This document shows, in pieces, positions 1 through 16,744 of a stretch of DNA of 20,064 nt. The notes under the pieces are model-generated. The model saw nothing but the letters and a program-made list of their open reading frames with translations, was not told the DNA's origin and ran no database searches. This DNA is from a virus. Each line of letters starts with the position of its first letter. Position 1 is the stretch's first letter. A program made the translations under genes and the position numbers. The DNA lies in the IMG/VR virus record IMGVR_UViG_3300021233_000303, positions 1-20,064 of that record; one strand, given 5' to 3'.

Positions 1-20
1 GCGGAGAGCGCGGCGAACAG

Positions 21-116
21 CCCGCGATCCCGCTAATGCGGGAGAGTGGGTGAGCCGAGCGGGCGCGAGCGCCGTAACGGATGCGTAGCAACGGCCGGGC
101 CAGCCATCAAATAAGC
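21..116. repeat. Mosaic intergenic repeat, copy 1
   Basis: Non-coding sequence downstream of the leftmost tail gene. It starts with a perfect 6-bp hairpin, TCCCGC-taat-GCGGGA (28-43), whose stem recurs with different loops at 12556-12571 and 12726-12741. It continues into a block (57-116) that matches 5535-5594 over 60 nt with two mismatches by eye, ending in CATCAAATAAGC. The block can fold locally (GGCGCGAGCGCC and CCGTAACGG). It therefore fuses a module seen near 12.55 kb to one seen near 5.5 kb. Function unknown; it may be a small non-autonomous element or a structured RNA segment. Confidence 0.8.
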
Positions 117-126
117 AGAGAGAAAA

Positions 127-1584
127 TCACTCAGGAATCGGAATCCTCGGGTACATCGGATCAGCACCTCTCAGGTTGTTGATCGTGTAGAGCCCAGTGC
201 CCTCGGCCATGCCTGTTGCAATTTGCCCGGAGAGTGACTTGATGGCCACGGGGTAGTTGTCATCACCGAAGCTTGCGGATCGCCAGATCATGTATGTGCC
301 GTAGTACGGGTAAACATTGCCGCCGAGGTAGCAACTCTCCTTGCTGAACGTGACGGTCTTCTCAGTGATCCCATCATCTTTATTCCAGCAAAAGATTGTA
401 GCCGACCCAATGTTTGAAGGTATATCAGCCACAAGCCCGTCACCGCTGACTGTTCCACAAGTCAATCGCCAGTGAGAATCCGTATCGCCGTCCTGAAAGG
501 TTACACCTTGAACACCGCTTAACGCTGCCGTGCCGGTAGCCGGTTCCCCGACTCTGGAGATCACAAAATCCCCGCAGTCTGTGGCATCGAACCAGCGGTA
601 GTCATAAGATACCCCGGTTTGCTCCCATGTATCGGGATCGAATATCGGCATCCCCCATAATCCGGGAGGGCTAGTTGCTTTCCATGATTCAAAGTCAAAG
701 GGCGTCGATAGCGTGATCGTGAAGGCGTGACTCTCGTCCCGTGTCCAGGTGCGGCTTGTGGCAGTCTGGGCCGTGAGCCGAAAGCCAGGAGGACGGACGT
801 AAGGATCGATTCCGTCTCCCACGTTGTATCCATCTGCCGTGCTATCTGTGATGCTCGCAGCGGTATACCAATCGCCACCAGATAGGTAATCACTGATTCC
901 TTTTTTGGTGATGGATACCCCACCTAAAATCCCAAGGTAGTTGCTGTTCCCATAGGTAATGAACCCATTCGGGTATTGCTTCCAGTTTGAATTGTTGACG
1001 TCACCACTAGATGCCGCGATGGCTGAAACGGAGGCATCTGAAAGGTCGGTGTAGAACGGACCTGCAGATGTCGTCCAAGGCCCATTTAGATCAATGGCAG
1101 GATACTCGTTGCTGTAGTCCCAATACTCACCAGGCGCGTAGTAAGTCCATCCACCTTCCCATTCATGCCCCTCCATGGAAAGGACGACATTGCTTTTCCA
1201 TGTCCGCAACCAAGGGGGAGGAGTTCCAATTACCCAAGGTGTAGGTATTTCACTCCAAGTCAGGCCAGCTAGGGAAATGCTAATTGGCCCAATTTTTGAA
1301 AGTCCAACACCGTTGTCTCCTACGTATTCATTGCCTCCCATATAAGGAAGTGCATCCCAATATCCATTCGGGTACTGATAAAGAGTTGCTCCTGCGGTCA
1401 TGTGAGGATTAGTGACCCGATAGTGCCAAAGCTCAATCGTGCTTCCCGCCGGAAATGTCGGAGTTGACCCGTCGGGTGGTCCTTTGACCAAAAGAGAGCA
1501 GTCTATCGGGTATCCCGGCTCGTAGGGACGAGGTGCTTTGTCTTCTACAAAGACCTCAAGGGGCCGTGGGTAGTGATGGAACAT
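127..1584 (-). CDS. Putative tail tip/fibre-associated structural protein (485 aa)
   Basis: I do not recognise a named family. The protein is rich in Gly, Trp, Tyr, Ser and Thr, has many short beta-type stretches and no coiled coil, signal peptide or membrane segment. That composition and its place as the third gene after the tape measure gene suggest an extracellular beta-rich tail component such as a fibre, tip or receptor-contact protein. The ATG follows the stop of the upstream gene (1588) by 3 nt, so it is almost certainly co-transcribed with it. No Shine-Dalgarno is evident. Base composition looks less GC-rich than the head genes, consistent with mosaic exchange of tail-end genes. The next feature downstream is repeat copy 1. 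The ORF is secure; the role is inferred from position only. Confidence 0.75.
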   Translation of the reverse strand: MFHHYPRPLEVFVEDKAPRPYEPGYPIDCSLLVKGPPDGSTPTFPAGSTIELWHYRVTNPHMTAGATLYQYPNGYWDALPYMGGNEYVGDNGVGLSKIGPISISLAGLTWSEIPTPWVIGTPPPWLRTWKSNVVLSMEGHEWEGGWTYYAPGEYWDYSNEYPAIDLNGPWTTSAGPFYTDLSDASVSAIAASSGDVNNSNWKQYPNGFITYGNSNYLGILGGVSITKKGISDYLSGGDWYTAASITDSTADGYNVGDGIDPYVRPPGFRLTAQTATSRTWTRDESHAFTITLSTPFDFESWKATSPPGLWGMPIFDPDTWEQTGVSYDYRWFDATDCGDFVISRVGEPATGTAALSGVQGVTFQDGDTDSHWRLTCGTVSGDGLVADIPSNIGSATIFCWNKDDGITEKTVTFSKESCYLGGNVYPYYGTYMIWRSASFGDDNYPVAIKSLSGQIATGMAEGTGLYTINNLRGADPMYPRIPIPE

Positions 1585-1587
1585 GAC

Positions 1588-2220
1588 TCACGGGGCGAAT
1601 GTGAACGTATGCCCGAAAGGCTGGTCACTCTGCAGCCCAAAGACCAACTGGTAGGCCATCGGCCCGTAAGTCCCCTGCACCACACTCCCATCGGGTCGGA
1701 TATAGCCGAGCAGGACATAGGCAAACTCGACGGTGTTGGCTGGCACCGGAGGAGTCGCATCACTGAGCCCCGTCTCGCACACTGCACCCACCACGGTACC
1801 CGCCACGCAGCGCACCTTCAGCCAGACATTCCTGACCTTGCCTGTCTCCGGCAGCGTGTAGGCCATGCGTGGATACTCAAGGAACCCGCCCGCGCCATCT
1901 GACGGCATCGCCCATAGGAACTGCCCATCAACATTTGGAAACACGCCGCCGACCGTGCCGGGGTAGAGCGAGAGGTAGTTAGTGGTCGTCCCGCTGGCCG
2001 TCACCGAGGAAAGGATGATCTGAAGAGGCTTGATCGGTGCGCTTGACTCTTCGCCTCCACCTCGAGCCCATAGCTGGGTACCCATCGGAGTCCTGGCAAA
2101 GGCCCCGCCGACGAAGCTTGTGACTAGCGAGGAGCGGACGTAATCGACAAGGGTATTCCAATGCCCAAGAGGAATCAGGCCTTGGCTCTTGAGCTTGAGC
2201 TTGTCGATGTCGTAGGCCAT
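1588..2220 (-). CDS. Putative tail-associated protein (210 aa)
   Basis: Protein of unknown family, beginning MAYDIDKLKLKSQGLIPLGH, with a Gly/Ser/Thr-rich, probably beta-rich body and no membrane segment. The N-terminal helix-like stretch followed by a beta-rich domain would suit a small tail-tip or fibre-attachment protein, but this is inference from its place two genes after the tape measure gene. It lies 6 nt after the stop of the upstream gene and 3 nt before the next start, so the three genes are tightly packed in one operon. A GGAGGAG string lies about 11 nt upstream of the ATG, inside the end of the preceding gene; this is long for a Shine-Dalgarno but is one of the few candidates among the structural genes. 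Confidence 0.7.
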   Translation of the reverse strand: MAYDIDKLKLKSQGLIPLGHWNTLVDYVRSSLVTSFVGGAFARTPMGTQLWARGGGEESSAPIKPLQIILSSVTASGTTTNYLSLYPGTVGGVFPNVDGQFLWAMPSDGAGGFLEYPRMAYTLPETGKVRNVWLKVRCVAGTVVGAVCETGLSDATPPVPANTVEFAYVLLGYIRPDGSVVQGTYGPMAYQLVFGLQSDQPFGHTFTFAP

Positions 2221-2226
2221 AACTGA

Positions 2227-2919
2227 CTACGCTCCTCCGTGCGGGTAAATAGCAGATGGCCACGGGTTTGCCGACCAGATCCGGGTGATGGATCGCGTCC
2301 AGTAGGGATATCGCCTTTGGATGCTCCCCGAGATGATCAACCAATTAGGCTCAAGATCATCCGTGTACCCAATCAGCGTCGAGACACTCTCCGGCTTGGT
2401 CCAAAAATACTTGGTGTAGGTCTCGGTGACCGATGCTACTTTGTAGGTCGAAATCCCTGCATACTCGCTCCAGGTCGCCCAACCATCAAATTTCCCTTTC
2501 TCATTAAAAAGCGCACCGTTTTCAACAGTCCCAAAAGGAGGGTTGTCGTTGTAGGTTTTTGAAAAATTAGGGTGCGCCTCGATAGGGGCCTCCACCGCAT
2601 TGGCGCTCTCACTGTACTCGTCTGGAGGCAATGGCTGATCCGTTGCAGGGGGATCGTTATTTGCAGGGGTCTCATAGGTCAACGTGACATCCACCAGCAT
2701 CGGGATGCTGGAAGCCTGCGCACTCCTCTGAACCAGTGTGGCATTTGCCATGTCGGGGTGAGCCGATCCACGCTGAGGGCATCCAGCGATCCATCCATCC
2801 TCAAATGCGCGGAATGTGCGCTCGATCACCAGCTGGCCGTTGCGTCCCTCGCTATACTTGTTTTTGGCCTGAAGGATACCACTCCCAAAGGAGGTTCCGA
2901 CGATGCGAGCGATAGTCAT
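2227..2919 (-). CDS. Putative tail protein downstream of the tape measure (230 aa)
   Basis: Unknown family. The N-terminus (MTIARIVGTSFGSGILQAKN) is followed by a mixed region with a Pro/Asp-rich linker around residues 85-110 and a Trp/Tyr-rich C-terminal third. No membrane or signal segment is seen. In siphoviruses the first gene after the tape measure gene often encodes a distal tail protein or another baseplate component, so that is a reasonable but unproven role. The gene has a pyrimidine-rich leader carrying a 12-nt word (GAAGGCTAAAAG on the plus strand, 2935-2946) that occurs at the same distance before the start at 6086. No Shine-Dalgarno is seen. Confidence 0.7.
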   Translation of the reverse strand: MTIARIVGTSFGSGILQAKNKYSEGRNGQLVIERTFRAFEDGWIAGCPQRGSAHPDMANATLVQRSAQASSIPMLVDVTLTYETPANNDPPATDQPLPPDEYSESANAVEAPIEAHPNFSKTYNDNPPFGTVENGALFNEKGKFDGWATWSEYAGISTYKVASVTETYTKYFWTKPESVSTLIGYTDDLEPNWLIISGSIQRRYPYWTRSITRIWSANPWPSAIYPHGGA

Positions 2920-2994
2920 GGATTGGGAAAGGCTGAAGGCTAAAAGCTAAAGGATGAAACTGGGGAAGGTTTAAGAGGTGATGAGTGTCAATGG

Positions 2995-4488
2995 TTAGGA
3001 GGCGTCGGGTATCTCAAGGGTGTATTCTTTCTCAGCAATGATCTTCATGTAGTTGCGCATCTCCTCCTGGAGTTTGATTCCCTTTTCGGCCTCGGCATTG
3101 ATTACCGAGTAGTCCACTCCGGCCAGACGCTGGCCGCTTCTGCTATCTCCGACCTCCTTGATGCCGGAAACAAATCCAAGGTCACGCTCCCTCTCGCGGA
3201 AGTCATCCATCTTTTTGCGCTCGGCAAGCTTTTCGTTTCGCTCCGATATCTTGGCAAGATTATCACGCTCTTTAGAATCAACTTCTGCTTTTTTCTTGAG
3301 AGCCTTGTCGTATTCTTCGGCCTCTTTGTTAAGTTGCTTTAACTGTTCCTCACCGGCCTTCTCTTGGATTTTGGCAATTTCGTCCTGCGTCGATAGCTGC
3401 GCCTGCTCGTTTTTTACGATCTGGTCACTGAGTTCTTTGCGCCGATCCACTGAGTCTGCCGAGGTGTTTGCGAGCTCCTCCTCAAGGGCCTTTCGCTGCT
3501 CCACCAGGTGCGCCAGCCTTGTCTCGGCTTCCAAGGCCTTTTCCGCATGATCAGCCCTAATCTGCGCAATCCGCTCCTCGAGGGCTGCACGATCTTCGGC
3601 GGCGGCATTCTGCGCTTCGGCTGCATCAATGGCTGCCTGCTGGTCCGGTGATTGCGGTGCTTCACCTTCACCAAAGATTATTTTTTTCAGCTCATTGCCA
3701 TACTCAATAACATTGTTTTTGGCGTTCTCAATCATTGCCCCAAGGCTCCCCCAAGCACCTTGCAAATCTCCTTTTAGGAGGCTTGCAAATGCTTGGTTCA
3801 TATCAGAGGCACCGTCCACGATTATCTTGAACAATCGGGCAAACTTTTCTTCGTCTATTTCACGAATCTTATCGTTAAGATTAAGAGTTTCTGCGGAAAA
3901 CACGATAGCCGCATTTTTTGCTGCTGTAAGTCTGTCACCAGCCTCATCAAGTTTTTTTACAGCTTCATCACTGGCAACTGCCGTTTTCTGAAAAAACTTC
4001 TCCATCTCTTCCGTCCCGCCAAGCAGCATCGGAAACAGGACTTTGGCTTTTGAACCCATTGACTCAAATGCCAAGGTGATGCGCTCCTGGGGGTCGGGAA
4101 TCTTCTCCAAGGCTGCGGCAAGCATGATCATCTGCTCATCCATGTTTGCTTTGGAAAACTCCTTGGCATCAATCCCGAGCTTCTCCAGACCACTGCTGTC
4201 AGCCCGCAGCTTGCCAAGCACTTTGGCGACATTGTCGATAGTCATGCCAAACTGCTGCGCATACTGATCGACCCTCTGCACGGCCTCTGCCGTTGTGCCA
4301 AAGGTCTCGGCCATGTCCTGAATCTTTCCAAAGTGCTCGAGTATCTGCTCAACCGAGATGCCTGCAAAGATCCCCATCAGGAGATGATGAACCTCATCCT
4401 TGAAGTGCATGACCTGCCCCTTTGCTGCGTCCAGCCCTGTCTTGAGGGCTGAGTTATTGGTTCCCAGCGTGAGTTCGATGGCGCTCAT
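2995..4488 (-). CDS. Tail tape measure-like protein (497 aa)
   Basis: Likely the tape measure (tail length) protein, around which the tail tube polymerises. The N-terminus shows the common pattern of these proteins, a short strand followed by NNSALKTGLDAAKGQV, then helical segments rich in Ala, Lys and Glu. Residues about 281-440 form a long charged coiled coil of Glu/Lys/Arg/Gln/Ala heptads. Hydrophobic segments are short (near 34-50 and 188-200), so a full membrane-spanning region is not clear. It is small for a tape measure protein; on the usual rule of roughly 1.5 angstrom per residue it would specify a tail of about 75 nm. It starts 5 nt after the stop of the probable chaperone gene. No Shine-Dalgarno is seen. 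Confidence 0.8.
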   Translation of the reverse strand: MSAIELTLGTNNSALKTGLDAAKGQVMHFKDEVHHLLMGIFAGISVEQILEHFGKIQDMAETFGTTAEAVQRVDQYAQQFGMTIDNVAKVLGKLRADSSGLEKLGIDAKEFSKANMDEQMIMLAAALEKIPDPQERITLAFESMGSKAKVLFPMLLGGTEEMEKFFQKTAVASDEAVKKLDEAGDRLTAAKNAAIVFSAETLNLNDKIREIDEEKFARLFKIIVDGASDMNQAFASLLKGDLQGAWGSLGAMIENAKNNVIEYGNELKKIIFGEGEAPQSPDQQAAIDAAEAQNAAAEDRAALEERIAQIRADHAEKALEAETRLAHLVEQRKALEEELANTSADSVDRRKELSDQIVKNEQAQLSTQDEIAKIQEKAGEEQLKQLNKEAEEYDKALKKKAEVDSKERDNLAKISERNEKLAERKKMDDFRERERDLGFVSGIKEVGDSRSGQRLAGVDYSVINAEAEKGIKLQEEMRNYMKIIAEKEYTLEIPDAS

Positions 4489-4493
4489 GGTCG

Positions 4494-5039
4494 TTAAAGT
4501 GTGTATCCGGCAGCTTTCAGAGCCTCTTCTTCAGCCGCTGTCATCAGCGGGATCTCGTTTCCTCCCGCCTCGGCCAATGCCAGGACAAGGTGCCGCGCAT
4601 ACCCGAAGGGAGTTGCCCAGGCTTCCTCATGGCCCATCCGGCCGCAGCGCATGAGCACCGCCGCCATGTAGAGGCAGATCGGGCTCTTGACGGGTTTTCC
4701 AGATCCGCTCTCCCAGCAGCGCGGGGTGGCAATGTGGTCGGCAAGGTAGCTCTGGAATGCCAGCGAGGTCTCCCTGATCCCGGCTTTCTCGATCGATGCA
4801 ATCAGGTGCGGGTCACAGACAAACTCGGCAGGCCCGCAGGTCGCCGGGCTCTCGGCAGGGCGGGAGCAGATCAGCAGAGCAAGTGCCAGATCCGCTGCCG
4901 TCCCGTCACCGCTTACACCTACATAGGGGCTTCGGACGAACTCCAGGAGCCAGACATGCCAGAGACTGAGGGGCTGCAACGCAACCCCGCAGATCTCATG
5001 GCGAAGATTGAAGACGCACTCCGCGAGGGTTGCGGACAT
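4494..5039 (-). CDS. Putative tail assembly chaperone (181 aa)
   Basis: Unknown by sequence; proposed as the tail assembly chaperone because it is the single gene directly upstream of the tape measure gene, the place of lambda G/GT-type chaperones. The protein is mostly helical and Ala/Leu-rich, with no signal peptide. The C-terminal half, containing EAWATPFGYARHLVLALAEA, looks the most conserved in style. Many such loci use a -1 frameshift to add a second domain, but here only 5 nt separate the stop from the tape measure ATG, so there is no room for a separate downstream chaperone reading frame. It starts 24 nt after the previous gene ends. No Shine-Dalgarno is seen. Confidence 0.65.
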   Translation of the reverse strand: MSATLAECVFNLRHEICGVALQPLSLWHVWLLEFVRSPYVGVSGDGTAADLALALLICSRPAESPATCGPAEFVCDPHLIASIEKAGIRETSLAFQSYLADHIATPRCWESGSGKPVKSPICLYMAAVLMRCGRMGHEEAWATPFGYARHLVLALAEAGGNEIPLMTAAEEEALKAAGYTL

Positions 5040-5063
5040 GGCCGTAACGTGGACGGCTGGTCC

Positions 5064-5420
5064 TTAGACCACCACGGTCGGCGTGAAGCCGGTATGGTAG
5101 GCGAGAGAGACGGTCTGCTTCAGAGGCTTGCCACCAAAATTCTGGAGGTCGGCCTCGATGACCACGAAGGCACGCTCGTCTCCATCGATCTCCTCGAGGA
5201 CATCACCCTTGTTGAGGGCGACTCCGGTGCTCTTGATCACCAGATCGCAGGAGACATCGACGCCGGGCCTCCAGAAGGAGTAGTTGGCCACAAGCCCGTC
5301 GCCGCCATCGGTGCGCTCGTGCATGGTGGAGTCTTTCTCCTTCCACGTGCCGTCAACGACGACATGGTTGGCGAAGAGGGGGGCGCTTTTGCGAAGGAGG
5401 ACGGTGCCAAGCTGGGACAT
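5064..5420 (-). CDS. Small tail protein, possible tail tube subunit (118 aa)
   Basis: A short beta-rich protein with no recognised family. It occupies the slot of the major tail tube protein, between the tail terminator-like gene and the putative chaperone, but at 118 aa it is shorter than most tube proteins, so the assignment is tentative. No signal peptide, membrane segment or coiled coil is seen. The ATG follows a pyrimidine-rich leader (complement of 5421-5440, 16 of 20 C or T) and no Shine-Dalgarno. A TTTGACA string on the minus strand (5464-5470) lies 44 nt upstream, at the edge of repeat copy 2, and could be a -35 box, although no good -10 box follows. Confidence 0.65.
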   Translation of the reverse strand: MSQLGTVLLRKSAPLFANHVVVDGTWKEKDSTMHERTDGGDGLVANYSFWRPGVDVSCDLVIKSTGVALNKGDVLEEIDGDERAFVVIEADLQNFGGKPLKQTVSLAYHTGFTPTVVV

Positions 5421-5464
5421 GGGAAAGGTAGGGTTGGAGTTTGGGTGTTCCCTTTCCCCGCTGT

Positions 5465-5594
5465 GTCAAATCGTGGCGTGGTGACCCGGCCGGTTAGACT
5501 GGGAGCGCAGCGACCAGCCCCGAAGGGGTTAGCTGAGCGGGCGCGAGCGCCGTAACGGATGCGTAGCAACGGCAGAGCCAGCCATCAAATAAGC
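5465..5594. repeat. Mosaic intergenic repeat, copy 2 (longest)
   Basis: This copy fills most of the 210-nt gap between two tail genes. Its left part (5491-5528) matches 12637-12674 over 38 nt with one mismatch and includes a CCCCGAAGGGG mini-hairpin. Its right part (5535-5594) matches 57-116 over 60 nt with two mismatches. It is thus the only copy that carries both modules in full. All copies have the same orientation relative to the operon. Inside one operon such a repeat would be transcribed with the tail genes. No open reading frame or promoter is clear within it. Confidence 0.85.
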
Positions 5595-5630
5595 CCTCAG
5601 GGCGACACCGATCGACGGGAGTCGTGTGAC

Positions 5631-6086
5631 TTAATCCATCAGACCGCAGTAGGCCCGGTAGCTGAGTACCACACCATGGAGTTTTCGCTCCTGATTCATC
5701 CCCTCTTTGTGGCCCGTGTACTCGATCCCACTGAAGGCCACACCGGCATCCTCGCCGGCAAGGTGCCCCTCAATGGTCTCCTGGGCGCTCTCCTGCAAGG
5801 CCCCCCGCACCGTGTCAGCAAGCCTGGCAAGATGCTCCAGGGGATCCCCGGCAGCCTCACGCTCACCGGCCTCGCCACTGCCAATGAGCAGCTGGATCTC
5901 CACCTCAAGCTGATCCACACCGGCACCCTGCACCAGATCCCCTCCCCCGGACATGACTGTGACGATCACCCTGGGAAGCGGACCCTGCTCCTCGTTGCGG
6001 TGTCCCTCGAGCAGGGTGACACCGGGAAGCGAATCGGTGAGGTAGCTGACCAGGGATTTCTCAAGACGGATGGCTAGGAGGGACAT
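5631..6086 (-). CDS. Putative tail terminator / minor tail protein (151 aa)
   Basis: The overall pattern fits small tail-terminator or tail-completion proteins: an N-terminal helix (MSLLAIRLEKSLVSYLTDSL), a central strand pair around PRVIVTV and VEIQLLIG, a long acidic helix, and a final strand VVLSYRAYCGL. Such proteins cap the tail tube and join it to the head. Its position after the gp10-like gene and before the tail genes agrees. No family signature is certain. The start has no Shine-Dalgarno but a pyrimidine-rich leader with the 12-nt word also found before the gene starting at 2919, at identical spacing (6102-6113 here). It ends 37 nt before repeat copy 2. Confidence 0.65.
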   Translation of the reverse strand: MSLLAIRLEKSLVSYLTDSLPGVTLLEGHRNEEQGPLPRVIVTVMSGGGDLVQGAGVDQLEVEIQLLIGSGEAGEREAAGDPLEHLARLADTVRGALQESAQETIEGHLAGEDAGVAFSGIEYTGHKEGMNQERKLHGVVLSYRAYCGLMD

Positions 6087-6127
6087 GGGATGGAAAAAGC
6101 GGAAGGCTAAAAGTTGAATGGTTTTGC

Positions 6128-6910
6128 TTAGGCGGCGCGGACTTTGACCAGGTTGGGATAGGCACGCTCGACGTTCTTCATGCTGTCGAAAACCCCTTTC
6201 TCAAGGTTTTTTTTAAAATACTGCTGACGGCCTTGGACGGTTCTTTGCAGGATCCCCTCGGCATCCTTGCGCATCGAAGCAATGGAGGAGTTGGTCATGG
6301 TCAGGCTGTAGCTCGACTCCGTTTGCTTGATCTTTGCTTTACCAAGCTCGGATGGCATTCGGTTGCGAATCTTTGAGTTTAGCACGGCGGCTGAGGCACG
6401 TAGATTTTCGCCAAACTCTTGAGCAATCGCATGCCATGTAAATTTAGGGATGCCACGACGCGACAACAGTTCGGTGACGCGATTTTTTAACGATGAAAGG
6501 CGCTGACGGTTGAGATCCAGATAGGTGTCCCAGACCGAATCCGGCAGGTAGTTCTTGTTTGCCAAATACCAAACGCCTCCACCCCTCCGGCCACGGGTGC
6601 GCGAGAAGGCACCTGTTCTTGGCCTGGGCATTCCAAGCCAGACTCGACCGTTTTTTGAGCAGACGCTTATTTTGGGGAAGCTGCCTACCGATTCAACCCC
6701 CCAACGATTGAGCGCATCATACTGATTGAACTTGGTTGCGGTAACTTGCCTGATCTTTTCGGCCGGGGTCAGCTTGGTCCGATCCAGGCATGTCTGCAGA
6801 ATCGATTTGGCTTCCGACAAGGTCACCTCGCGCATCGGGCGCATGGTCATCAGCGAGATCTGCCGCAGCACGGTCTCCATGCCACTCACATCGATGCTAG
6901 TCGTGATCAT
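6128..6910 (-). CDS. Putative head-tail completion protein, HK97 gp10-like by position (260 aa)
   Basis: A basic, largely helical protein with an Arg/Gly-rich patch near residues 98-112 (RPRTGAFSRTRGRRGGG) and many Lys/Arg-rich helices after it. No membrane segment. The ATG overlaps the stop of the upstream gene (ATGA, 4 nt), implying coupled translation. It stands between the head-tail connector-like gene and the tail terminator-like gene, where HK97 gp10-type or minor tail completion proteins are usual, though it is longer than most gp10 proteins. Sequence alone does not prove the family. Confidence 0.65.
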   Translation of the reverse strand: MITTSIDVSGMETVLRQISLMTMRPMREVTLSEAKSILQTCLDRTKLTPAEKIRQVTATKFNQYDALNRWGVESVGSFPKISVCSKNGRVWLGMPRPRTGAFSRTRGRRGGGVWYLANKNYLPDSVWDTYLDLNRQRLSSLKNRVTELLSRRGIPKFTWHAIAQEFGENLRASAAVLNSKIRNRMPSELGKAKIKQTESSYSLTMTNSSIASMRKDAEGILQRTVQGRQQYFKKNLEKGVFDSMKNVERAYPNLVKVRAA

Positions 6911-7224
6911 CCGATGCTATGAAGGGAAAGCACCCATTCCGGAAGCGGTTGGGTGACATCCTTGACCTCGACGATCCGATACTCCCGACCGGCCACCTTG
7001 ATGATGCTTTCGGAGACGGGAGTCTCACTGATGGCGCTCTTAAGGAATCTGATGCTGGTATCGGCCTCTGCCGTGAATCCTCCTTCCCGCAGCGTCCTGG
7101 CATCGCGGGTCGGGGGCTTGGTGGCCATAAAGGCGACCCCGTGATACTCGCAAGGCTCCCCATAGGTTTTTAGTCTCTGGGCCGCTCCCCGGCGGGCAAG
7201 GTCTCGGATGGCGTCGGGATTCAT
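6907..7224 (-). CDS. Putative head-tail connector protein (105 aa)
   Basis: A short protein with an N-terminal helix (PDAIRDLARRGAAQRLKTYG) followed by a strand-rich domain ending EYRIVEVKDVTQPLPEWVLS. That plan resembles small head-tail joining proteins such as the lambda FII or HK97 gp7/stopper type, which seal the head and dock the tail. The stop overlaps the next start by 4 nt. The leader is strongly pyrimidine-rich (complement of 7225-7245) with no Shine-Dalgarno. A long hairpin (7247-7283) lies just upstream. The role rests on position and general shape. Confidence 0.65.
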   Translation of the reverse strand: MNPDAIRDLARRGAAQRLKTYGEPCEYHGVAFMATKPPTRDARTLREGGFTAEADTSIRFLKSAISETPVSESIIKVAGREYRIVEVKDVTQPLPEWVLSLHSIG

Positions 7225-7246
7225 TGGGGAAGGGAGAAAAAGTGAA

Positions 7247-7283
7247 GGGCCATCCGACGGGTTACATGTCCGTTGGATGGCCC
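7247..7283. terminator. Long hairpin between head and connector genes
   Basis: GGGCCATCC (7247-7255) pairs perfectly with GGATGGCCC (7275-7283), and the stem continues inward with one G-T pair and ACGG/CCGT, giving about 14 bp around a 9-nt loop. In the direction of transcription (minus) it is followed by TTCACTTTTT, so the T-run begins a few bases too late for a classic terminator. It could be a weak terminator or an RNA-processing/stability element that separates capsid from tail gene expression. Confidence 0.6.
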
Positions 7284-7314
7284 CGGGCTGTGGCGGAGGG
7301 CAGCCGATGAAGTC

Positions 7315-7647
7315 TTAGGCAGCTCCGGGGGATTCCGGAGCGGCGGGAGCCGAGGAGGACTCTTCCTCAGGGGAGGCGGAAGTTTCTTCACCATCTTCCT
7401 CATCAGCAGGGCGGGTCTGAGCTTCGATCGGGAGGAGAGCCTCCTTGTTGAAGACTCCTTTCGGCTCGGAGGGACGGGCCTTTTTGATCAGTCCGCCAGC
7501 GCTGGACCAGATCTGGACTTCGTCGAGATCCGAGTACTTGCGGCCTTTGATCGCGGAGAGTTGCTCCCGGATGGCCACTTCCGGCCCCGCAAGGAGCCGG
7601 AAGGTCTTGTCGCTCTTTTTCCTGCCGAGCGTGATGGCGGTTCTCAT
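7315..7647 (-). CDS. Small protein following the major capsid gene (110 aa)
   Basis: Not recognised. The first two thirds are mixed charge with a short conserved-looking core (residues about 30-60), and the last 30 residues are a low-complexity acidic, Ser/Pro/Ala tail (DEEDGEETSASPEEESSS). It starts 19 nt after the capsid gene stop and ends just before the hairpin at 7247-7283, so it belongs to the capsid transcript. Lambda has gpFI, another small acidic-type accessory of packaging, at the same place, but no homology can be claimed. The ATG has no Shine-Dalgarno. Confidence 0.65.
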   Translation of the reverse strand: MRTAITLGRKKSDKTFRLLAGPEVAIREQLSAIKGRKYSDLDEVQIWSSAGGLIKKARPSEPKGVFNKEALLPIEAQTRPADEEDGEETSASPEEESSSAPAAPESPGAA

Positions 7648-7666
7648 CGTCGTCGCGGCCTAGGGA

Positions 7667-8743
7667 TTAGGCGCTGGTGATGATCTTGAGCGCCTGCTGG
7701 TTGCCGACGGCAAACCCGTAGTTGCACTCGATGACGGCCTTGTCGGCGTCACCGTTGGGATCGCCCCAGGCACGGTACTCCAGGGTCAGGCCGCTCTCCT
7801 CGTCGGTCACCTTGCGGTAGTCGGCGAGGTGCTTCATGACGTTGGGTCCGGGCTGGATCGGCGAGAAGGCCGTCAGGATCGCGCTCTGGTGGACCGCCAT
7901 GCCGACGATGTTCTCCTCGTTGTCGGGGAGGAACGGGGTGCCGACGTAGTCGTCGAAGCCAGCAAACTGGCGGACGATGCCGGTGCGGAGTTGCTCGCCC
8001 TGGTCGCCGGAGGCATAGGCGTAGAGGAGCGCGTTGTCCTTGAAGAGCGCGTTGTCGTAATCCGCGTTCATGATCAGGCCGCGCCCCATCATCGGCCACT
8101 GGGCCTTGGTGAGGTAGTTCTTGATGTCGGCGACGACATCCACGTCGAACGAGCTGACGGGGCCGGTGTAGATCGGAGCCCCGAAGTTGTCAGTGTTCAC
8201 CACGGAGAGGATGTCGCTCAGGACATCGGCCGCGAGGCGGCGGCCCTTCTGCTGGCCGATCTTCTCGGGGTTGAGCTTGGGCTGGCGGGCGAGCTCCTTG
8301 GAGGTGAAGCTCATGCTCTGGTACTTGCGCTTGTTGATCGTGACATCGCGGGCCTCGGTCTCGCTGCCGTCGAAGATATACTCGCCGTCGTAATCACGGC
8401 TGGCGGAGCCGGAGAGCGGGTAGAAGGGAACGGCCACCTTGTCGGCGCCATTGAGGACCACGTCGCTGAAGACGGTCGAGAAGGCACGCAGCGGAAGGAT
8501 CACCGTCTTGAAGGCCTCTAGGGCGGAATCAAGGATGGTGTCGAGCTGCAGATCGCTGTCGACCGTGTTGGCCATGCCAAGCGTGCCGAAACGGGCACCC
8601 TGGAGGATGTTCATGCCGGCGGCGGCAATCCCCATGGTGAAGGCGGCGCCGGCAAGGGCGCCATGGGTGAAGGTGGCAACGATGCCGGCGACAAAGGCGA
8701 CGGCGGTCATGAGCAGGGCGAGGAAGCGGGTGGAGACTTTCAT
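7667..8743 (-). CDS. Major capsid protein (probable, 358 aa)
   Basis: Probable major capsid protein, the shell-forming subunit. Supporting features are its size, its place after protease and scaffold genes, and a body typical of HK97-fold capsid proteins: a helix (LDTILDSALEAFKTVILPLRAF), an extended strand region (ADKVAVPFYPLSGSASRDYDG), then an alternating alpha/beta body with GRGLIMNADYDNALFKD near residues 221-237. The N-terminus is odd: residues 7-45 are strongly hydrophobic, preceded by Lys and Arg, and look like a signal or membrane segment. An internal ATG at 8573-8575 (MANTVD) would give a 302-residue protein without it. Neither start has a Shine-Dalgarno, so the start is unresolved. 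Confidence 0.8.
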   Translation of the reverse strand: MKVSTRFLALLMTAVAFVAGIVATFTHGALAGAAFTMGIAAAGMNILQGARFGTLGMANTVDSDLQLDTILDSALEAFKTVILPLRAFSTVFSDVVLNGADKVAVPFYPLSGSASRDYDGEYIFDGSETEARDVTINKRKYQSMSFTSKELARQPKLNPEKIGQQKGRRLAADVLSDILSVVNTDNFGAPIYTGPVSSFDVDVVADIKNYLTKAQWPMMGRGLIMNADYDNALFKDNALLYAYASGDQGEQLRTGIVRQFAGFDDYVGTPFLPDNEENIVGMAVHQSAILTAFSPIQPGPNVMKHLADYRKVTDEESGLTLEYRAWGDPNGDADKAVIECNYGFAVGNQQALKIITSA

Positions 8744-8814
8744 GTCAGTGGGTGGGTGTGTGGATTGCTTGGGTGTGGGGTTTTTGCTGGAAAGCGGGTG
8801 TCAAATCGCGGGGA

Positions 8815-9471
8815 TCACTTTTTCTTTTGGGCCTTGGCGGCGCGGGTGATGGCCGCCTTGTTGGCGCGGTAGTAGGCGGTCTTGGCACTGCCCTTGAGCC
8901 CGGCGTATTTGCCGAGGTGCTCGGCATCGCTCGCGGCAACGTCCTGTGACTCGTCGGAGACGGGAGGCAGGTTTCCGGCAGGCACTCCCTGGCCGGCCAC
9001 GATGTCGGCGGCGGCTTCGGCGGTGGTCTTCTGCTCTTTCTCCAGGCGGGCGACGCTCTGCTCGAGCGCGGCCTTGCCGTCGCGGAGTTCCTTCAGCTCG
9101 GTGGCCTGAGTCGCCACGGTCTTGTTGGCGGTCTCGAGCTCGCCACGGAGGCGGGCGATCTCGCCCTCATGGCCGGAGATTTTCTTGAGCAGTTCCCCGC
9201 GGGCAGCGAGGTAATCACCGGCTTTGGCAAAGATGCCTTTCTTCGCGGAGGCATCGGGCTTGCCTTCTCCTTCAGCGGGAGCAGCGGCAGGCTCGGAGGT
9301 GGTGCCACCCTGCTCGCCACCCTCAGCGGGAGCGGCATTGGGATCAGCGGCAGGAGCGGGATTAGCGGGATTAGCGGGATCAGCGGGCTCGGCAGGAGCG
9401 CCAGTACCGGCGCCGTTGTCGGCAGCAAGGAGGAGGTAGGAGCGGAGGCGATGGATATTCACGCCCTCCAC
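8815..9471 (-). CDS. Putative capsid scaffold protein (218 aa)
   Basis: Probably the scaffolding protein on which the procapsid forms. Residues about 20-75 are Ala/Pro-rich low complexity, encoded partly by a 9-bp tandem repeat; residues about 85-150 form a charged coiled coil (ISGHEGEIARLRGELETANK region); the C-terminus is short, helical and very basic (ITRAAKAQKKK). A central coiled coil with a basic C-terminal capsid-binding tail is typical of scaffolds, and the gene lies between protease and capsid. The start is GTG at 9471, with another GTG at 9462 preceded by GGAGG that is too close to act as a normal Shine-Dalgarno. A decoration protein is the alternative. Confidence 0.7.
   Translation of the reverse strand: MEGVNIHRLRSYLLLAADNGAGTGAPAEPADPANPANPAPAADPNAAPAEGGEQGGTTSEPAAAPAEGEGKPDASAKKGIFAKAGDYLAARGELLKKISGHEGEIARLRGELETANKTVATQATELKELRDGKAALEQSVARLEKEQKTTAEAAADIVAGQGVPAGNLPPVSDESQDVAASDAEHLGKYAGLKGSAKTAYYRANKAAITRAAKAQKKK
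9355..9390. repeat. 9-bp tandem repeat in the scaffold gene
   Basis: Four head-to-tail copies of AGCGGGATT with changes in the third and fourth units (GGATC, GGCTC). In frame they encode repeated Ala/Pro/Asn/Asp residues in the flexible N-terminal region of the putative scaffold protein. The length is a multiple of three, so slippage would alter linker length without breaking the frame. Confidence 0.8.
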
Positions 9472-9718
9472 GGGATGTCAAAAGGCCGCTGGGAAGCGGG
9501 CTTAGTCATTCACGGCGAGGAGCCGTGAAGTCCCGAGGTCAGCAGACCGAGGGGTGCCTGGTCGGGGACGACCGGCAGACAAACAAGTGGCCGGGAGGCG
9601 ACTGCCGTCAAAACCGCTTGCCCGCCGGAAAAAGTACCCGGTTTTTCCGTCACCCCATGAGCTCCGCAGCACGTGCACCGACCATTTTCGTGACGCCGCG
9701 AACATGGTTGCTCAAACG
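9472..9718. other. Non-coding, hairpin-rich gap between protease and scaffold genes
   Basis: No convincing gene is seen. The segment holds several local inverted repeats: 9509-9529 (TTCACGGC/GCCGTGAA, 8 bp, 5-nt loop), 9556-9576 (GCC-t-GGTCG/CGACC-GGC), and 9626-9649 (CGGAAAAA/TTTTTCCG, 8 bp, 8-nt loop). It also has a 25-nt stretch at 9590-9614 that matches 12592-12616 with two mismatches. Because terminator-like hairpins lie at its upstream edge, a new promoter for the scaffold and capsid genes would be expected here. TTGACG (minus, around 9605-9610) is a candidate -35 box but has no good -10 box. Confidence 0.6.
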
Positions 9719-9749
9719 AAAAACCCCCCGCTGCACGTGCAGCGAGGGG
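9719..9749 (-). terminator. Rho-independent terminator, second of a pair
   Basis: A perfect 14-nt palindrome GCTGCACGTGCAGC (9730-9743) is extended by C-rich and G-rich arms (9724-9729 and 9744-9749, one mismatch). On the minus strand the stem is followed directly by five T residues (complement of 9719-9723). This is a convincing terminator for transcription leaving the protease gene. Confidence 0.8.
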
Positions 9750-9762
9750 TCCAACCGTGACC

Positions 9763-9797
9763 AAAAACCTGTCGCCACACGTGTGGCGGCACTTTTT
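9763..9797. terminator. Bidirectional terminator-like palindrome after the protease gene
   Basis: GCCACACGTGTGGC (9774-9787) is a perfect palindrome, extended to about 10 bp per arm over 9771-9790. Five A residues (9763-9767) and five T residues (9793-9797) flank it, so either strand ends in a T-run. On the minus strand it begins only a few bases after the protease stop. It forms a tandem pair with the hairpin at 9719-9749. Confidence 0.75.
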
Positions 9798-10648
9798 CAG
9801 GAGAGCATTCCGGAGGCCATCGCGGCCGTCACCACGTTCTGAAGCTCGGGCGAGGTGTCGTCGACAAGCCCCAGGCTCACGGCCTGCTCTCCGTCGAACC
9901 ATTGGCCTTGAAGCGTGGAGTCGGCGACTCCCGCACGCCGCTCGCGCACGAAGCCTTTGAAGGCTTTGCTGTTGCGGTCGACCATGGCCTGGAGGAATGC
10001 GTCCTCTTCGGGGGTCCATTCCTTGCCCTCAATTCCGATCCCCTTGAGAGCCCCATCGCGGAAGAGCTTGAGCTTGAAGCCCTCTTGCTCCCAAGCGCGG
10101 GAGGCGTCGATTGCGGCGATGTACACTCCGATCGATCCCACGATGGCACTCGGGGCGGCGTAGAACTCGTTGCAGGCGCTCGCAAGCCAGTAGGCGGCCG
10201 AGCAGCATTGGGTCGACGTGTAGGCGATGGTCGTCTTGCTCTCTCCGAGTGCCTTGATCTTGTCGGCCATTTCACGCACTCCGATGGTCGTTCCTCCCGG
10301 GCTGTCGAAGTCGAGGATCACCGTGTGGATGTTGCTATCCTCGGACGCCGCATCAAGATCGCGGCTCAGGGTATCGAGATCGTAGCCGCCGCAGAGCATC
10401 TCCATCAGTCCGAGGTGCTTTCCGATGATCCCATGCACCGGGATGACCATCACTCCCATGGAGCTCTGGGGCAGGGAGCGGTCCTCCTCTTCCTCCTCCT
10501 CGCAGTCGTTGCCCAGATCGAGGTCGGCACGGGAGCCCGGGAGTTTCGCCAGGTGATCCTGAAGCTGGCGGCCCAGCATCCGGTGGACGTCGAGCCTGAT
10601 GGCCCATGCCTGAAAGTAGAAGGCGGTGAGGAGGCGTGCGTATTTCAT
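9797..10648 (-). CDS. Head maturation protease, peptidase S49 (SppA/lambda C-type)
   Basis: Clear S49 serine peptidase, the procapsid protease of lambda-like phages that also cuts scaffold and portal. Residues 116-120 are the SPGGT motif; CCSAAYWLAS places the probable nucleophile at Ser150; GSIGVYIAAID (about 171-181) follows as in SppA-like proteins, with a nearby Lys-containing segment (FKLKLFRDGALKGIG) likely to supply the general base. An unusual poly-Glu run lies at residues 50-55, before the catalytic domain. The length of 283 aa suits a protease without a fused scaffold domain, which agrees with a separate scaffold gene next door. It starts 6 nt after the portal gene stop; two terminator-like hairpins follow. 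No Shine-Dalgarno is seen. Confidence 0.9.
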   Translation of the reverse strand: MKYARLLTAFYFQAWAIRLDVHRMLGRQLQDHLAKLPGSRADLDLGNDCEEEEEEDRSLPQSSMGVMVIPVHGIIGKHLGLMEMLCGGYDLDTLSRDLDAASEDSNIHTVILDFDSPGGTTIGVREMADKIKALGESKTTIAYTSTQCCSAAYWLASACNEFYAAPSAIVGSIGVYIAAIDASRAWEQEGFKLKLFRDGALKGIGIEGKEWTPEEDAFLQAMVDRNSKAFKGFVRERRAGVADSTLQGQWFDGEQAVSLGLVDDTSPELQNVVTAAMASGMLS

Positions 10649-10654
10649 GGAGGG

Positions 10655-12217
10655 TTAGTCGTTGGGTTGGTCTTCGGGGGGAAGTGGTGCTGCGCTTGCG
10701 GGGTCTTCCGCTGCGTCGGATCCGGCGGCTGAGGGATCGCCTTTCACGCTCAGCTGAGTGGCCCCGAGGAGCGCCTGGACCTCGGCAAGGCTTTCGAAGT
10801 TGCGCTTTTTCAGTCCGTCGCGGATGTAGGCCAGCTCGTCCATCCACTGGTCTGTGGGAGGCTTCCAGTCTTCGCTGAACTGCTCGTCGTAGTAGCGGCT
10901 GAGCGTGATCATTCCGGCTTTGCGAAGATCGATGCTGAGCTTCCCATCCTTGGCGCGGTCTACGGTCAGGCGGGTCTGGGGAATGAATCCCACCTTCCAC
11001 CACTCGGGGTCCTCGCACTGGCGGAGGCGGCCGGCCTTCATCTCGCAGGCGATGTGATAGACCCAGTACCGGCGGCAGAAGGTATCCGCCAGGCGCTGCT
11101 GCTTTTGCTCGACCCATTTCACGGCATCGGCCAGGAGGAAGCGGTTGGAAGTCCCGTTGATCTTGCCGACAAACCAGAGCACCTCCGGCGAGACTCCGAA
11201 TCCCCAGCTCATGTCGCGCACCAAGTCGTCGAGGAAGCTCATCTGGTTGGGGTGCGGACGCGTGTCCTGCAGCGTCTTGATCTCCTCTCCCTCGAAGAGG
11301 TCGGTCACTTTTCCGCCGCGGAAGACGTCCTCGAGCGCGACTCTGGCCTGTGGCTCGGTCGGATTAGGCACCTCCAGCCGGCGCCCGGCACCCATGCGGC
11401 GGCTGGCGGCACTGGAGGAGGTCTTTTGCCCGGGACGGGTCCGGTAGAAGCCCATCTGGTTGGTGACCTTGATGCCGAGCTTCATGTCCCGGCGAACTTC
11501 GGTGATGTCGTGGAGGTGGTTGATCGCGTGCGCGAATCCCGTGATCCCGCGCGGCTGATTGAGCCTCTCAAAATCGCCGTAGTAGATGGCGTCCCGCGCC
11601 GAGATGTCGAAGTGGCCGCTCCCGTTCAGGATCCGGTAGCCCTGATGCTTCCCGTACCGGTCGATCTGGATGCCGTTTGTCCAGATGTTCTGATCGGTCG
11701 TGGAGCTATTTCCAATCTGATGACTCTCGTATCCGAGGAAGGCCGCCCCGCCGTTGGCCGTCTTGGTCAGGGCCGTGAGGATGTCACCATCCTTGAGGTC
11801 GTTCCTGGAAAGCGCGATCTGGTAGCTGTAGAAGTTGTGCTTGCCCGCAAGGTCGCAGATCTGGGCACTGCCGGCGCGGTTCTCGAAGTTGCGCATCGCC
11901 AGGTCGTTCCAGGCGGCATCGGTCGTCAGCGGGCGCGGGGTGAGGTAGCCGATCATCCCGGCAAGTCCGTTCACGCAGCGGCGTGCGAATCCGGAATTGG
12001 CATAGAACCAGCGGGCCCTCTTCACCAGCTCCCAGTGGCTGTAGCTGTCGAGCTCGCGGGCCGTGTCCAGCGTCGGAACGTAGAACCAGCCTCGGTAGGA
12101 GGAGCGGTTGGCCCCGTCGAACATGCTGTACCCCTTGGGCTTGAGGACTCCGCTTCCGGAACTGGAGCGGCGCGCCGGCGTGCGGGCGGCGGTTTTCTTG
12201 GTGGTCGAGCGGGCCAT
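10655..12217 (-). CDS. Portal protein, lambda gpB family
   Basis: Portal protein forming the DNA channel at one capsid vertex and docking terminase. The sequence fits the lambda-type portal family: an early RSSYRGWFYVPTLDTARELD segment, the ARWFYANSGFARRCVNGLAGMIG helix-turn region, NDLKDGDILTALTK, and a long helical C-terminal part containing RDMSWGFGVSPEVLWFVGKI and NRFLLADAVKWVEQKQQRLA. The 520-aa length is normal. The N-terminal 20 residues are basic and the C-terminal 30 are an Asp/Pro/Ala-rich tail. It starts 3 nt after the gpW-like gene and is followed 6 nt later by the protease, the conserved lambda order. The ATG lacks a Shine-Dalgarno. Confidence 0.92.
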   Translation of the reverse strand: MARSTTKKTAARTPARRSSSGSGVLKPKGYSMFDGANRSSYRGWFYVPTLDTARELDSYSHWELVKRARWFYANSGFARRCVNGLAGMIGYLTPRPLTTDAAWNDLAMRNFENRAGSAQICDLAGKHNFYSYQIALSRNDLKDGDILTALTKTANGGAAFLGYESHQIGNSSTTDQNIWTNGIQIDRYGKHQGYRILNGSGHFDISARDAIYYGDFERLNQPRGITGFAHAINHLHDITEVRRDMKLGIKVTNQMGFYRTRPGQKTSSSAASRRMGAGRRLEVPNPTEPQARVALEDVFRGGKVTDLFEGEEIKTLQDTRPHPNQMSFLDDLVRDMSWGFGVSPEVLWFVGKINGTSNRFLLADAVKWVEQKQQRLADTFCRRYWVYHIACEMKAGRLRQCEDPEWWKVGFIPQTRLTVDRAKDGKLSIDLRKAGMITLSRYYDEQFSEDWKPPTDQWMDELAYIRDGLKKRNFESLAEVQALLGATQLSVKGDPSAAGSDAAEDPASAAPLPPEDQPND

Positions 12218-12220
12218 GGC

Positions 12221-12508
12221 TTAGGTTCCAAGGCGGACTTGGCTGAAGTCCCAGTGCTCGGTGTTTCGATCGTCGGCGTCACCCGTCCCTGAACCGTCCT
12301 CATCGATGCGGTCGAGGCAGTCGTTGAGGATTGCGATCAGAGTCTGGGTATCGATGTTGGAGGTGCCGGTTGTCCCTCCTCCCTCGTAGTTCACCGCGGT
12401 GACGGTGACCCCGCTTGCAAGGTTCTTGAGCGCAGTGCGGAGCATTCCCTCCAGTTCCTCGCGCTCAAACAGTCTGAGGTATGCTTTTACGGTGTCGTCG
12501 TAGGCCAC
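12221..12508 (-). CDS. gpW-like head-tail joining protein (95 aa)
   Basis: Short protein whose core, an N-terminal amphipathic helix (EELEGMLRTALKNLASG), a beta hairpin (TVTAVNYEGGG) and a second helix (NIDTQTLIAILNDCLDRI), matches the plan of lambda gpW, which joins the filled head to the tail. It has about 25 extra acidic residues at the C-terminus. The place directly before the portal gene supports the call. It starts with GTG and no Shine-Dalgarno; TTTGACA on the minus strand is only 13 nt upstream, too near to be its -35 box. In lambda gpW is next to the terminase large subunit; here a plus-strand cassette and repeats intervene. Confidence 0.8.
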   Translation of the reverse strand: MAYDDTVKAYLRLFEREELEGMLRTALKNLASGVTVTAVNYEGGGTTGTSNIDTQTLIAILNDCLDRIDEDGSGTGDADDRNTEHWDFSQVRLGT

Positions 12509-12549
12509 GTTCCGCGCGGCGTGTCAAACAAGGGCATGGGAATGCCCGC

Positions 12550-12616
12550 GTTGGATCCCGCGGCTGCGGGACCCGAAGGGCGGCACTGCTCGCCGGGAGG
12601 AGAGTGCCGTCAAAAC
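12550..12616. repeat. Hairpin-bearing intergenic repeat, copy B1
   Basis: Contains the hairpin TCCCGC-ggct-GCGGGA (12556-12571), then a 22-nt block (12579-12600) that matches 12752-12773 with two mismatches. Its end (12592-12616) matches 9590-9614 over 25 nt with two mismatches. It lies in the gap between the gpW-like gene and the accessory cassette and abuts repeat copy 3. Confidence 0.8.
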
Positions 12617-12707
12617 GTGGCCGGTGGTGACCGGCCCGGTTAGACTGGGAGCGAAGCGACCAGCCCCGAAGGGGTGAGCCGAGCGGGCGCGAGCGAATCA
12701 AACAAGG
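12609..12707. repeat. Mosaic intergenic repeat, copy 3 (truncated)
   Basis: Shares GTCAAA and the 38-nt block 12637-12674 with copy 2 (one mismatch) and GTGAGCCGAGCGGGCGCGAG with copy 1. It then stops matching after GCGAGCG and jumps to ATCAAACAAGG, missing the CCGTAACGG module present in copies 1 and 2. It is flanked on both sides by the B-type repeats, giving the order B1 - copy 3 - B2. Confidence 0.8.
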
Positions 12708-12712
12708 CCGCC

Positions 12713-12790
12713 GAGTTGGATCCTGTCCCGCGCTGGCGGGAGGAACCGCATGGCGGAACTGCTCGCAGGGAGGCCAGGGACCTCAAAAAA
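12713..12790. repeat. Hairpin-bearing intergenic repeat, copy B2
   Basis: Begins with GTTGGATCC as B1 does, carries the hairpin TCCCGC-gctg-GCGGGA (12726-12741) and the 22-nt block 12752-12773 shared with B1, and ends in CCTCAAAAAA where B1 has CCGTCAAAAC. The conserved stem with a changed loop suggests that RNA or DNA structure is what is kept. It lies just upstream of the cassette promoter. Confidence 0.8.
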
Positions 12791-15987: not shown

Positions 15988-16744
15988 TGCCCGAAAAGCG
16001 GCTCTCGACGAGCTTGCCGAAAAGCACGTTGCACTCATCCTCAAAGGCCCTGTCCCGCTCGACGCTCCACGGGATCCCCTCTTTCATGGCAAACTTCCTA
16101 CCCAGCGAGCGGACCCCTTTCACAATCTCACCGTGCAGGGGAGCAAGCTCCCGGATGACCTCCACCCGAAGCCACATTTCTCCTGATTTTTGCAAGATCT
16201 CCGGAGCGGCTTTCTCCAACTGGCGCAAGTGATCGGCGAGATCCGCCCAGGTCTTTTGAGCAACGCGGATTTTTCCCTCGTTCGGCGGCTCCTCGGAAAT
16301 GGCAGCCGTGTACCGCCGGTGTGCCTTGGCCTCTTCCTCGCGCGTGCGAAGCAACGATGCCAGGAAGCCAGTGGAAAGATCGGAGGAGGGCGAAGCAGGA
16401 AGATCGCGCGGCGGATCAGAGGAGATTCCCTGAGGTTCCCCAAGAGTCGGGGGCGCTGGATCAGGATCCTCCGGAGCAAATTTGGCAGCGGCCGCGTAAA
16501 GCTTGTCCGGGACCCGATGGACCATGTGCTTACCCCACCACGCAACCAGATCAACGGGGTTTTCCAGAGGGGGGAGCTCCCCGACCGAACGGCCGTGATT
16601 GATCCAGTTATTCACCGACCTACTGGAGACACCGTAGATCCCGGCAAAATGAGATGGAGGCTTGGAATAGAAGTCACGACTCCGGAGCCGACCTTCAGAA
16701 GAGACCGGCGCCGGGAGCAATTCTTGCGGAATCTCGGCACTCAT
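15968..16744 (-). CDS. Terminase small subunit, Nu1-like (258 aa)
   Basis: Probable DNA-recognition subunit of terminase. Residues about 31-70 form a helix-turn-helix region (FAGIYGVSSRSVNNWINHGR) followed by the LENPVDLVAWW stretch seen in Nu1-type and related small terminases. A Pro/Ser-rich linker (about 88-120) leads to a helical C-terminal half with charged heptads that would bind the large subunit. It is directly upstream of, and overlaps, the GpA-type gene. It starts at ATG 16744 with only a weak purine stretch upstream. A 400-bp non-coding region with repeated motifs precedes it, as expected of a cos-type recognition region. Confidence 0.82.
   Translation of the reverse strand: MSAEIPQELLPAPVSSEGRLRSRDFYSKPPSHFAGIYGVSSRSVNNWINHGRSVGELPPLENPVDLVAWWGKHMVHRVPDKLYAAAAKFAPEDPDPAPPTLGEPQGISSDPPRDLPASPSSDLSTGFLASLLRTREEEAKAHRRYTAAISEEPPNEGKIRVAQKTWADLADHLRQLEKAAPEILQKSGEMWLRVEVIRELAPLHGEIVKGVRSLGRKFAMKEGIPWSVERDRAFEDECNVLFGKLVESRFSGNERRDP

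Follow-up and report, generated by a model that had tools for sequence, protein, structure and literature searches.

What are the folded repeats that lie between the late genes of the siphovirus contig IMGVR_UViG_3300021233_000303, and how did they come to be there? The window, meaning the whole 20,064-nt stretch analyzed, is a 20-kb contig with its late genes on the minus strand. A first-pass annotation had described in it a modular repeat family of three copies, confined to gaps between genes, and had offered recombination between modules, boundary function and small mobile or RNA elements as possible explanations. Our analysis places these repeats in a family with a shared fold and a precise mode of insertion, which is also found in bacterial chromosomes. 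That they are short non-autonomous mobile elements of ~70-120 nt, moved by single-strand (HUH-like) transposition, is in our estimate slightly better than an even bet.

The shared blocks within the window are real and larger than first claimed: one extends over 87 nt (5465-5549 versus 12609-12695; 91% identity, 119 bits) and another over 69 nt (48-116 versus 5526-5594; 94%, 107 bits), whereas the best self-match among 20 shuffled windows reached 32.8 bits. The hairpin module TCCCGC-NNNN-GCGGGA was likewise read where it had been placed (28-43, 12556-12571, 12726-12741). In total the window contains six units of ~85-120 nt, one of them clipped by the contig start, and two remnants, all of one superfamily and all on the plus strand, antisense to the late genes (Table 1). 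Each unit consists of one hairpin followed by three more, and the end is mostly TCAA; unit C, unlike the others, ends in GACAAA. The three listed copies are therefore present, the first of them cut short by the contig start, but the list lacked three further units and both remnants. The 12.5-12.8 kb gap holds units B, A and B' in tandem, all complete and each starting directly after the preceding TCAA, while the 5.4-5.6 kb gap holds c2 with a B remnant and the 9.5-9.6 kb gap holds C with a B tail. Because the units abut one another with TCAA as the boundary, the blocks seem "interchangeable"; the mosaic look comes from insertion in tandem at TCAA junctions, insertion of one unit into another and rapid turnover of the stems. 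For recombination between modules, or a role as boundaries, we found no support.

Beyond the window, we searched a collection in which each of 84,980 species is represented by a single genome. One strict pattern gave a single match in it, in a Verrucomicrobia assembly, where a RAYT gene is interrupted by an 88-bp copy, after the codons for MRMYE and before those for FSGC. As had been proposed, we built covariance models, using phage as well as host copies; they find the family across the Verrucomicrobiota: model R1 detects it in 19 of 388 genomes of this phylum (E<=1e-5), and model R2 finds at least 116 and at least 96 copies in the two richest genomes, of 2.2-2.4 Mb (G104 and G203); host copy numbers are lower bounds, with 150 candidates scored per genome. 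The phage B family is also present in two further genomes, at least 11 times in G425 and 3 times in G461, which give the best hint to the lineage of the phage's host. Unit B has close homologues in these two genomes and in a related phage, and unit A has a host homologue (BLAST E 6e-10). The prediction of a modular family with further copies is thus borne out in host chromosomes and related phage alike. Confinement to gaps holds for the phage but not for the bacteria, where copies are mostly intergenic and 13 of 109 lie within open reading frames (ORFs) of 150 aa or more; nested and tandem copies also occur in host genomes.

Several interrupted genes were observed, their names read from translated motifs, with Y1_Tnp alone identified by a profile match. 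Slightly differing copies interrupt three paralogues of a tyrosine integrase gene at the same codon in G023 (L064, L069, L074; RYVQE/MLGHER), and 87-nt copies lie in frame within Rhs-repeat ORFs, whose frames stay open (L148 3142-3228; L105 1501-1587). In the one-contig genome G411, two copies of a group II intron reverse transcriptase gene contain the same element in identical position and antisense orientation (L056 and L063); no empty site for these intron copies was found in the genomes searched. Insertions in conserved genes had raised the idea of a splicing RNA, which we rejected because the G411 copies are antisense to the intron reverse transcriptase gene.

Six contigs whose overlaps are essentially identical (L187, L189, L191, L197-L199) are pieces of one related phage, whose large terminase (TerL) and portal proteins are 74% and 72% identical to those of the window. 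In the gaps between the same genes this phage carries four B units, two C units and one shortened A unit, in combinations that differ from those of the window. Of the 13 units that we counted in the two phages, none shares its strand with the late genes, which we offer as a description and not as a strong test. TerL and primase searches turned up no other relatives among virus contigs, and BLAST of the window or L190 copies against plasmids and phages gave no matches. Single A-type units were also seen in two unrelated virus contigs (L188 11146-11226; L190 12320-12393); the Mu-like portal gene of the second is a hint of proteobacterial hosts.

The ends of the element are well defined. Among 109 copies the right end is (T/G)CAA in 100, and the left flank is CAA, GAA or CGA in 94, being GAA or CAA in most copies. 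Three empty sites were found. The RAYT paralogue L047 of G001, which aligns without gaps over 321 nt at 92% identity, is missing the 88 bp (empty TATGAGAA/TTTTTCC versus occupied TATGAGAA-88 bp-CTTTTCC). Similarly, L157 of G203 reads gcgcaa/gcactgg where L142 of G104 reads gcgcaa-84 nt-gcattgg. The third site is in E. coli, where a 78-bp element of the same fold lies inside the ERIC element of the yeiS-preT gap (R2 31.9 bits, E 2.5e-6) and is polymorphic among strains; the ERIC occurs with and without the 78 bp, the empty site is GAGCGAA/CGCAG, and the flanks are identical except for one base. A close match to this copy is present in 638 of 5426 E. coli genomes. The yeiS-preT gap itself occurs in three lengths (L215, L217), namely a short form with 248 nt of match, which we read as lacking the ERIC, the ERIC form (373 nt) and the ERIC with the 78 bp (451 nt). 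The annotation had proposed a search for empty sites and target duplications; the former exist, while the latter are absent from all three sites beyond an ambiguous AA. As judged from these comparisons, insertion is precise, occurs after (G/C)AA and leaves no target duplication, in Verrucomicrobiota as well as in the E. coli ERIC. The suggestion of small mobile or RNA elements is supported by clean empty sites, by hundreds of host copies and by the related phage, whose gaps between the same genes hold these families too.

Aligned host and phage copies share one architecture: hairpin 1, a linker (A/G)GAC, hairpin 2, hairpin 3, TGA, hairpin 4 and GA(A/G)TCAA. Hairpin 2 has a GNA loop, often with tandem G:A mismatches, and hairpin 3 is CCCC-GNA-GGGG. 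In an alignment of 47 copies, 21 of 23 pairs show compensatory changes, with 205 double-change cells against 55.8 +/- 6.3 after shuffling; for the B family the figures are 19 of 25 pairs, and 113 cells against 32.4 +/- 4.2. Both alignments were fitted to a model and lean towards the structure by construction, but a plain MAFFT alignment of 8 copies still has 12 covarying pairs against 5.2 shuffled. Covariation far beyond the shuffled controls thus strongly supports the predicted pairing. In addition, an A or C in the linker varies in step with a T or G in the terminal tetranucleotide (A-T 68, C-G 28, other 13; n=109). This pairing, which lay outside the pairs of the model, reaches 0.89 compared to 0.57 after shuffling, and 0 of 2000 shuffles were as high. 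As a result, the last three hairpins are closed by GAC/GTC or GCC/GGC, followed by AA. Phage family C folds alike (GTC-three hairpins-GAC-AAA).

These features resemble the logic of IS608, in which the right cleavage site (CR) is TCAA and the corresponding guide (GR), GAAT, is located 5' of the hairpin (PMC5934647). As in the IS200/IS605 family, insertion is 3' of a short fixed sequence without duplication and the end is TCAA, and the right-end tetranucleotide pairs with a guide situated 5' of the foot of the hairpin (PMC5934647; PMC6006769), although for our element the guide is proposed from sequence evidence alone. Unlike IS200/IS605 members, the element has no tnpA, places three hairpins between guide and end, and is richest in genomes without a Y1 protein. 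The cut behind AA, the lack of duplication, the end-pairing guide and the TCAA end make single-strand transposition the best account, by analogy with IS608. The folded single strand would be the substrate of a nuclease cutting behind AA, as in IS200/IS605-type and REP-type transposition, with the linker as the guide for the right cleavage site. The phage would have acquired its copies in a host providing the enzyme in trans, and their restriction to one strand may reflect the single-stranded state of that strand during replication. Elements inserting beside, inside and after one another produce the mosaics.

Several observations weigh against single-strand transposition as set out here. The Y1_Tnp (PF01797) profile has no match in G104, G203, G167, G150, G283, G378 or G425, and does match in other carrier genomes; the enzyme search covered PF01797 only and assembly completeness is not known, which gives the absence less weight in any one genome than across all seven. 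A diverged HUH protein could be the enzyme, as could one borne by a plasmid or phage, or something else. An association of the left flank with a left-end guide is confounded by subfamily, and no left-end guide could be established. The 13 phage units, tandem copies included, come from two related phages only and are not independent, and the host copies show no antisense bias (29 sense and 17 antisense to genes). Finally, the GGGA (GNRA) loops and the stable RNA fold are also compatible with an RNA.

The strongest competing explanation, which we consider unlikely, is spread through RNA: a cloverleaf-like RNA with an AA tail would be reverse-transcribed, in the manner of a bacterial retroposon resembling short interspersed nuclear elements (SINEs). 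The GNRA-type loops in B and C, the tandem G:A mismatches, the four-way-junction fold of C, insertion beside AA ends and the lack of a Y1 transposase in the richest genomes all fit such a route, and RttR, the relative in E. coli, is annotated as a small RNA. Against it, the late transcripts of both phages are antisense to the folded strand, and the 3' end has neither poly(A) nor a variable tail. The matches show no preference for 5' truncation, although searching with the model is biased towards complete copies, and no dedicated reverse transcriptase was identified, no search for one having been made.

Less probable still is a phage function, in which selection would maintain the structures in the gaps for packaging, transcription or mRNA processing, and the host copies would derive from phage. 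Constant orientation and the filling of the same gaps in two phages of ~74% TerL identity could be read this way, as could the presence, at most left edges, of TGTCAA, which reads TTGACA on the gene strand. Yet different families fill the same gap, the major capsid protein relatives L192-L196 have no R2 match, and the family is far commoner in chromosomes, where it also lies inside genes.

REP or BIME elements moved by RAYT (TnpA-REP) are a distinctly poor candidate, although RAYT as the general mobilizer was favoured at first on account of the copy inside the RAYT gene. Many carriers have RAYTs, and the family shares with REP, REPIN and BIME sequences a high copy number, dispersed and mostly intergenic positions, palindromic structure and a mosaic appearance. 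We dropped this role as a general explanation once the richest genomes had given no PF01797 match. Moreover, the element has four hairpins instead of one and no GTAG/GTRG tag 5' of the hairpin (the linker being GAC/GCC), and the RAYT genes examined bear unrelated flanking repeats of their own; none of the examined RAYT flanks contains the element, whose sole association is the insertion inside a RAYT. The flanks L029, L049 and L054 hold RAYT genes bordered by their own GGGGTCAGTCC-like repeats. Chance similarity or an assembly artefact, doubts raised at the outset and kept alive by a contig start inside a unit, can be given hardly any weight, as scores are far above those of shuffled windows, contig L004 (IMG/VR 3300021225_000546) from another assembly, 99.9% identical over 12.7 kb, carries the same copies at 5.5 and 12.6 kb, and hundreds of copies exist elsewhere.

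The kind of element is partly known, as scattered local descriptions, and our searches of an open-access library turned up no account of the family for Verrucomicrobiota or phages. By fold and motifs, the E. coli RtT/RttR repeats of the tyrT locus (Rfam RF00391) have their parts in the same order: a GA-GC-GNA-GC-GA hairpin, an AGA/GAAC linker, hairpin 2, a CCCGAAGGG hairpin, GAG, the last hairpin and GA(A/G)TAA at the tRNA T-arm. With R2, the best copy of the K-12 tyrT locus scores 22.0 bits (E 1.8e-4), and in the opposite direction the Rfam RtT model matches a Verrucomicrobiota copy adjoining a tRNA gene (L061) at 39.8 bits, below the gathering score of 45. The K-12 RtT copies differ from our family in being tandemly repeated, in carrying tRNA 3' ends and in having a terminal TAA instead of CAA. 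Neither an RtT match nor a tRNA gene occurs in the window, and all its Rfam matches are far below gathering scores. With moderate scores, similarity of fold and motif suggests a link to E. coli across phyla.

ERIC itself is a terminal-repeat element with a TA target duplication (PMC2759123), which the 78-bp element is not. The Rickettsia palindromic elements share with our family that some copies lie in frame within ORFs, but the aligned copies have no conserved CGTC tag, a different fold and the target rule (G/C)AA. Insertions of about 70 bp in ERICs were reportedly described by Wilson and Sharp in 2006. The AaHKsRNA22 consensus (Rfam RF02902) has the same four-hairpin order; its match is weak (28.6 bits versus a cut-off of 39.8) and a lead only. 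Unlike miniature inverted-repeat transposable elements, the ends are not inverted repeats and the three empty sites show no target-site duplication apart from the ambiguous AA. In integron attC sites, IntI recognises R''/R' boxes on a folded strand. The GTTAGAC of units A and c2 fits the attC R' consensus; attC sites were rejected, as GTTAGAC is not conserved in the family.

Table 1. Late genes of the window and the repeat units found between them; bits and E-values refer to models R1, R2 and R3.
Feature	Position	Strand	Description	Basis
Tape measure gene	2995-4488	minus		
Major capsid protein gene	7667-8743	minus		
Protease gene	9797-10648	minus		
Portal gene	10655-12217	minus		
Large terminase gene	14110-16044	minus		
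Unit c1	1..110	+	A-like, last hairpin enlarged, end CATCAA; 5' part lost at contig start	69 nt, 94% identity to c2; computed fold of third hairpin
Unit c2	5470..5588	+	A-like, left flank GTGTCAA, end CATCAA	R1 41.1 bits, E 1.9e-8; R2 43 bits, E 8.7e-8 (c2 in R2 training rows)
B-type remnant abutting c2	5589..5635	+	Third and fourth hairpins	R3 24.7 bits, E 1.6e-5 for 5557-5635
Unit C	9482..9583	+	Left flank ATGTCAA, hairpin and three hairpins closed by GTC/GAC, end GACAAA	R3 19.4 bits, E 5e-4; two related-phage homologues (alignment A5); fold
B-type tail remnant CGGGAGGCGACTGCCGTCAA	9584..9611	+	Immediately 3' of C	25-nt repeat D5, 92% to 12592-12616
Unit B	12528..12613	+	Left flank GTGTCAA, end GTCAA	R3 98.1 bits (training sequence)
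Unit A	12614..12701	+	Starts exactly at TCAA of B, end GAATCAA	R1 62.6 bits, E 1.8e-13 (training sequence)
Unit B'	12702..12786	+	Starts exactly at TCAA of A, end CTCAA	R3 42.2 bits (training sequence)

The third hairpin of c1 is CCCGC-GA-TCCCGC-TAAT-GCGGGA-GA-GTGGG. Other features of the window were also noted. A different kind of repeat, outside the family, GGCTGAAGGCTAAAAGC-like and 80% identical between its copies, is located upstream of two late genes (2917-2951 and 6084-6118). The gap beside unit C contains strong palindromes at 9722-9750 and 9764-9797 that are probably transcription terminators, and nine-nucleotide coding repeats are found at 9348-9386 within a scaffold-like gene (8815-9471).

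Taken more broadly, we see an even chance that these sequences represent a superfamily spanning at least Verrucomicrobiota, Gammaproteobacteria and phages, with cloverleaf-like elements of ~70-120 nt that would insert precisely behind (G/C)AA through guide-end pairing and an enzyme other than the known Y1 proteins; the RtT repeats and ERIC insertions would be its known tips, and phages would carry it between hosts. The tyrT RtT repeats, the ERIC insertion and the phage gap repeats would then belong to a single mobile family in which the fold is conserved and the insertion rule is clear, with about 100 or more copies in small genomes. Since occupancy of a single locus differs among E. coli strains, its movement would be traceable in a standard organism. 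The missing enzyme becomes a testable question, and such elements would have a means of spreading in the phages that gather them.

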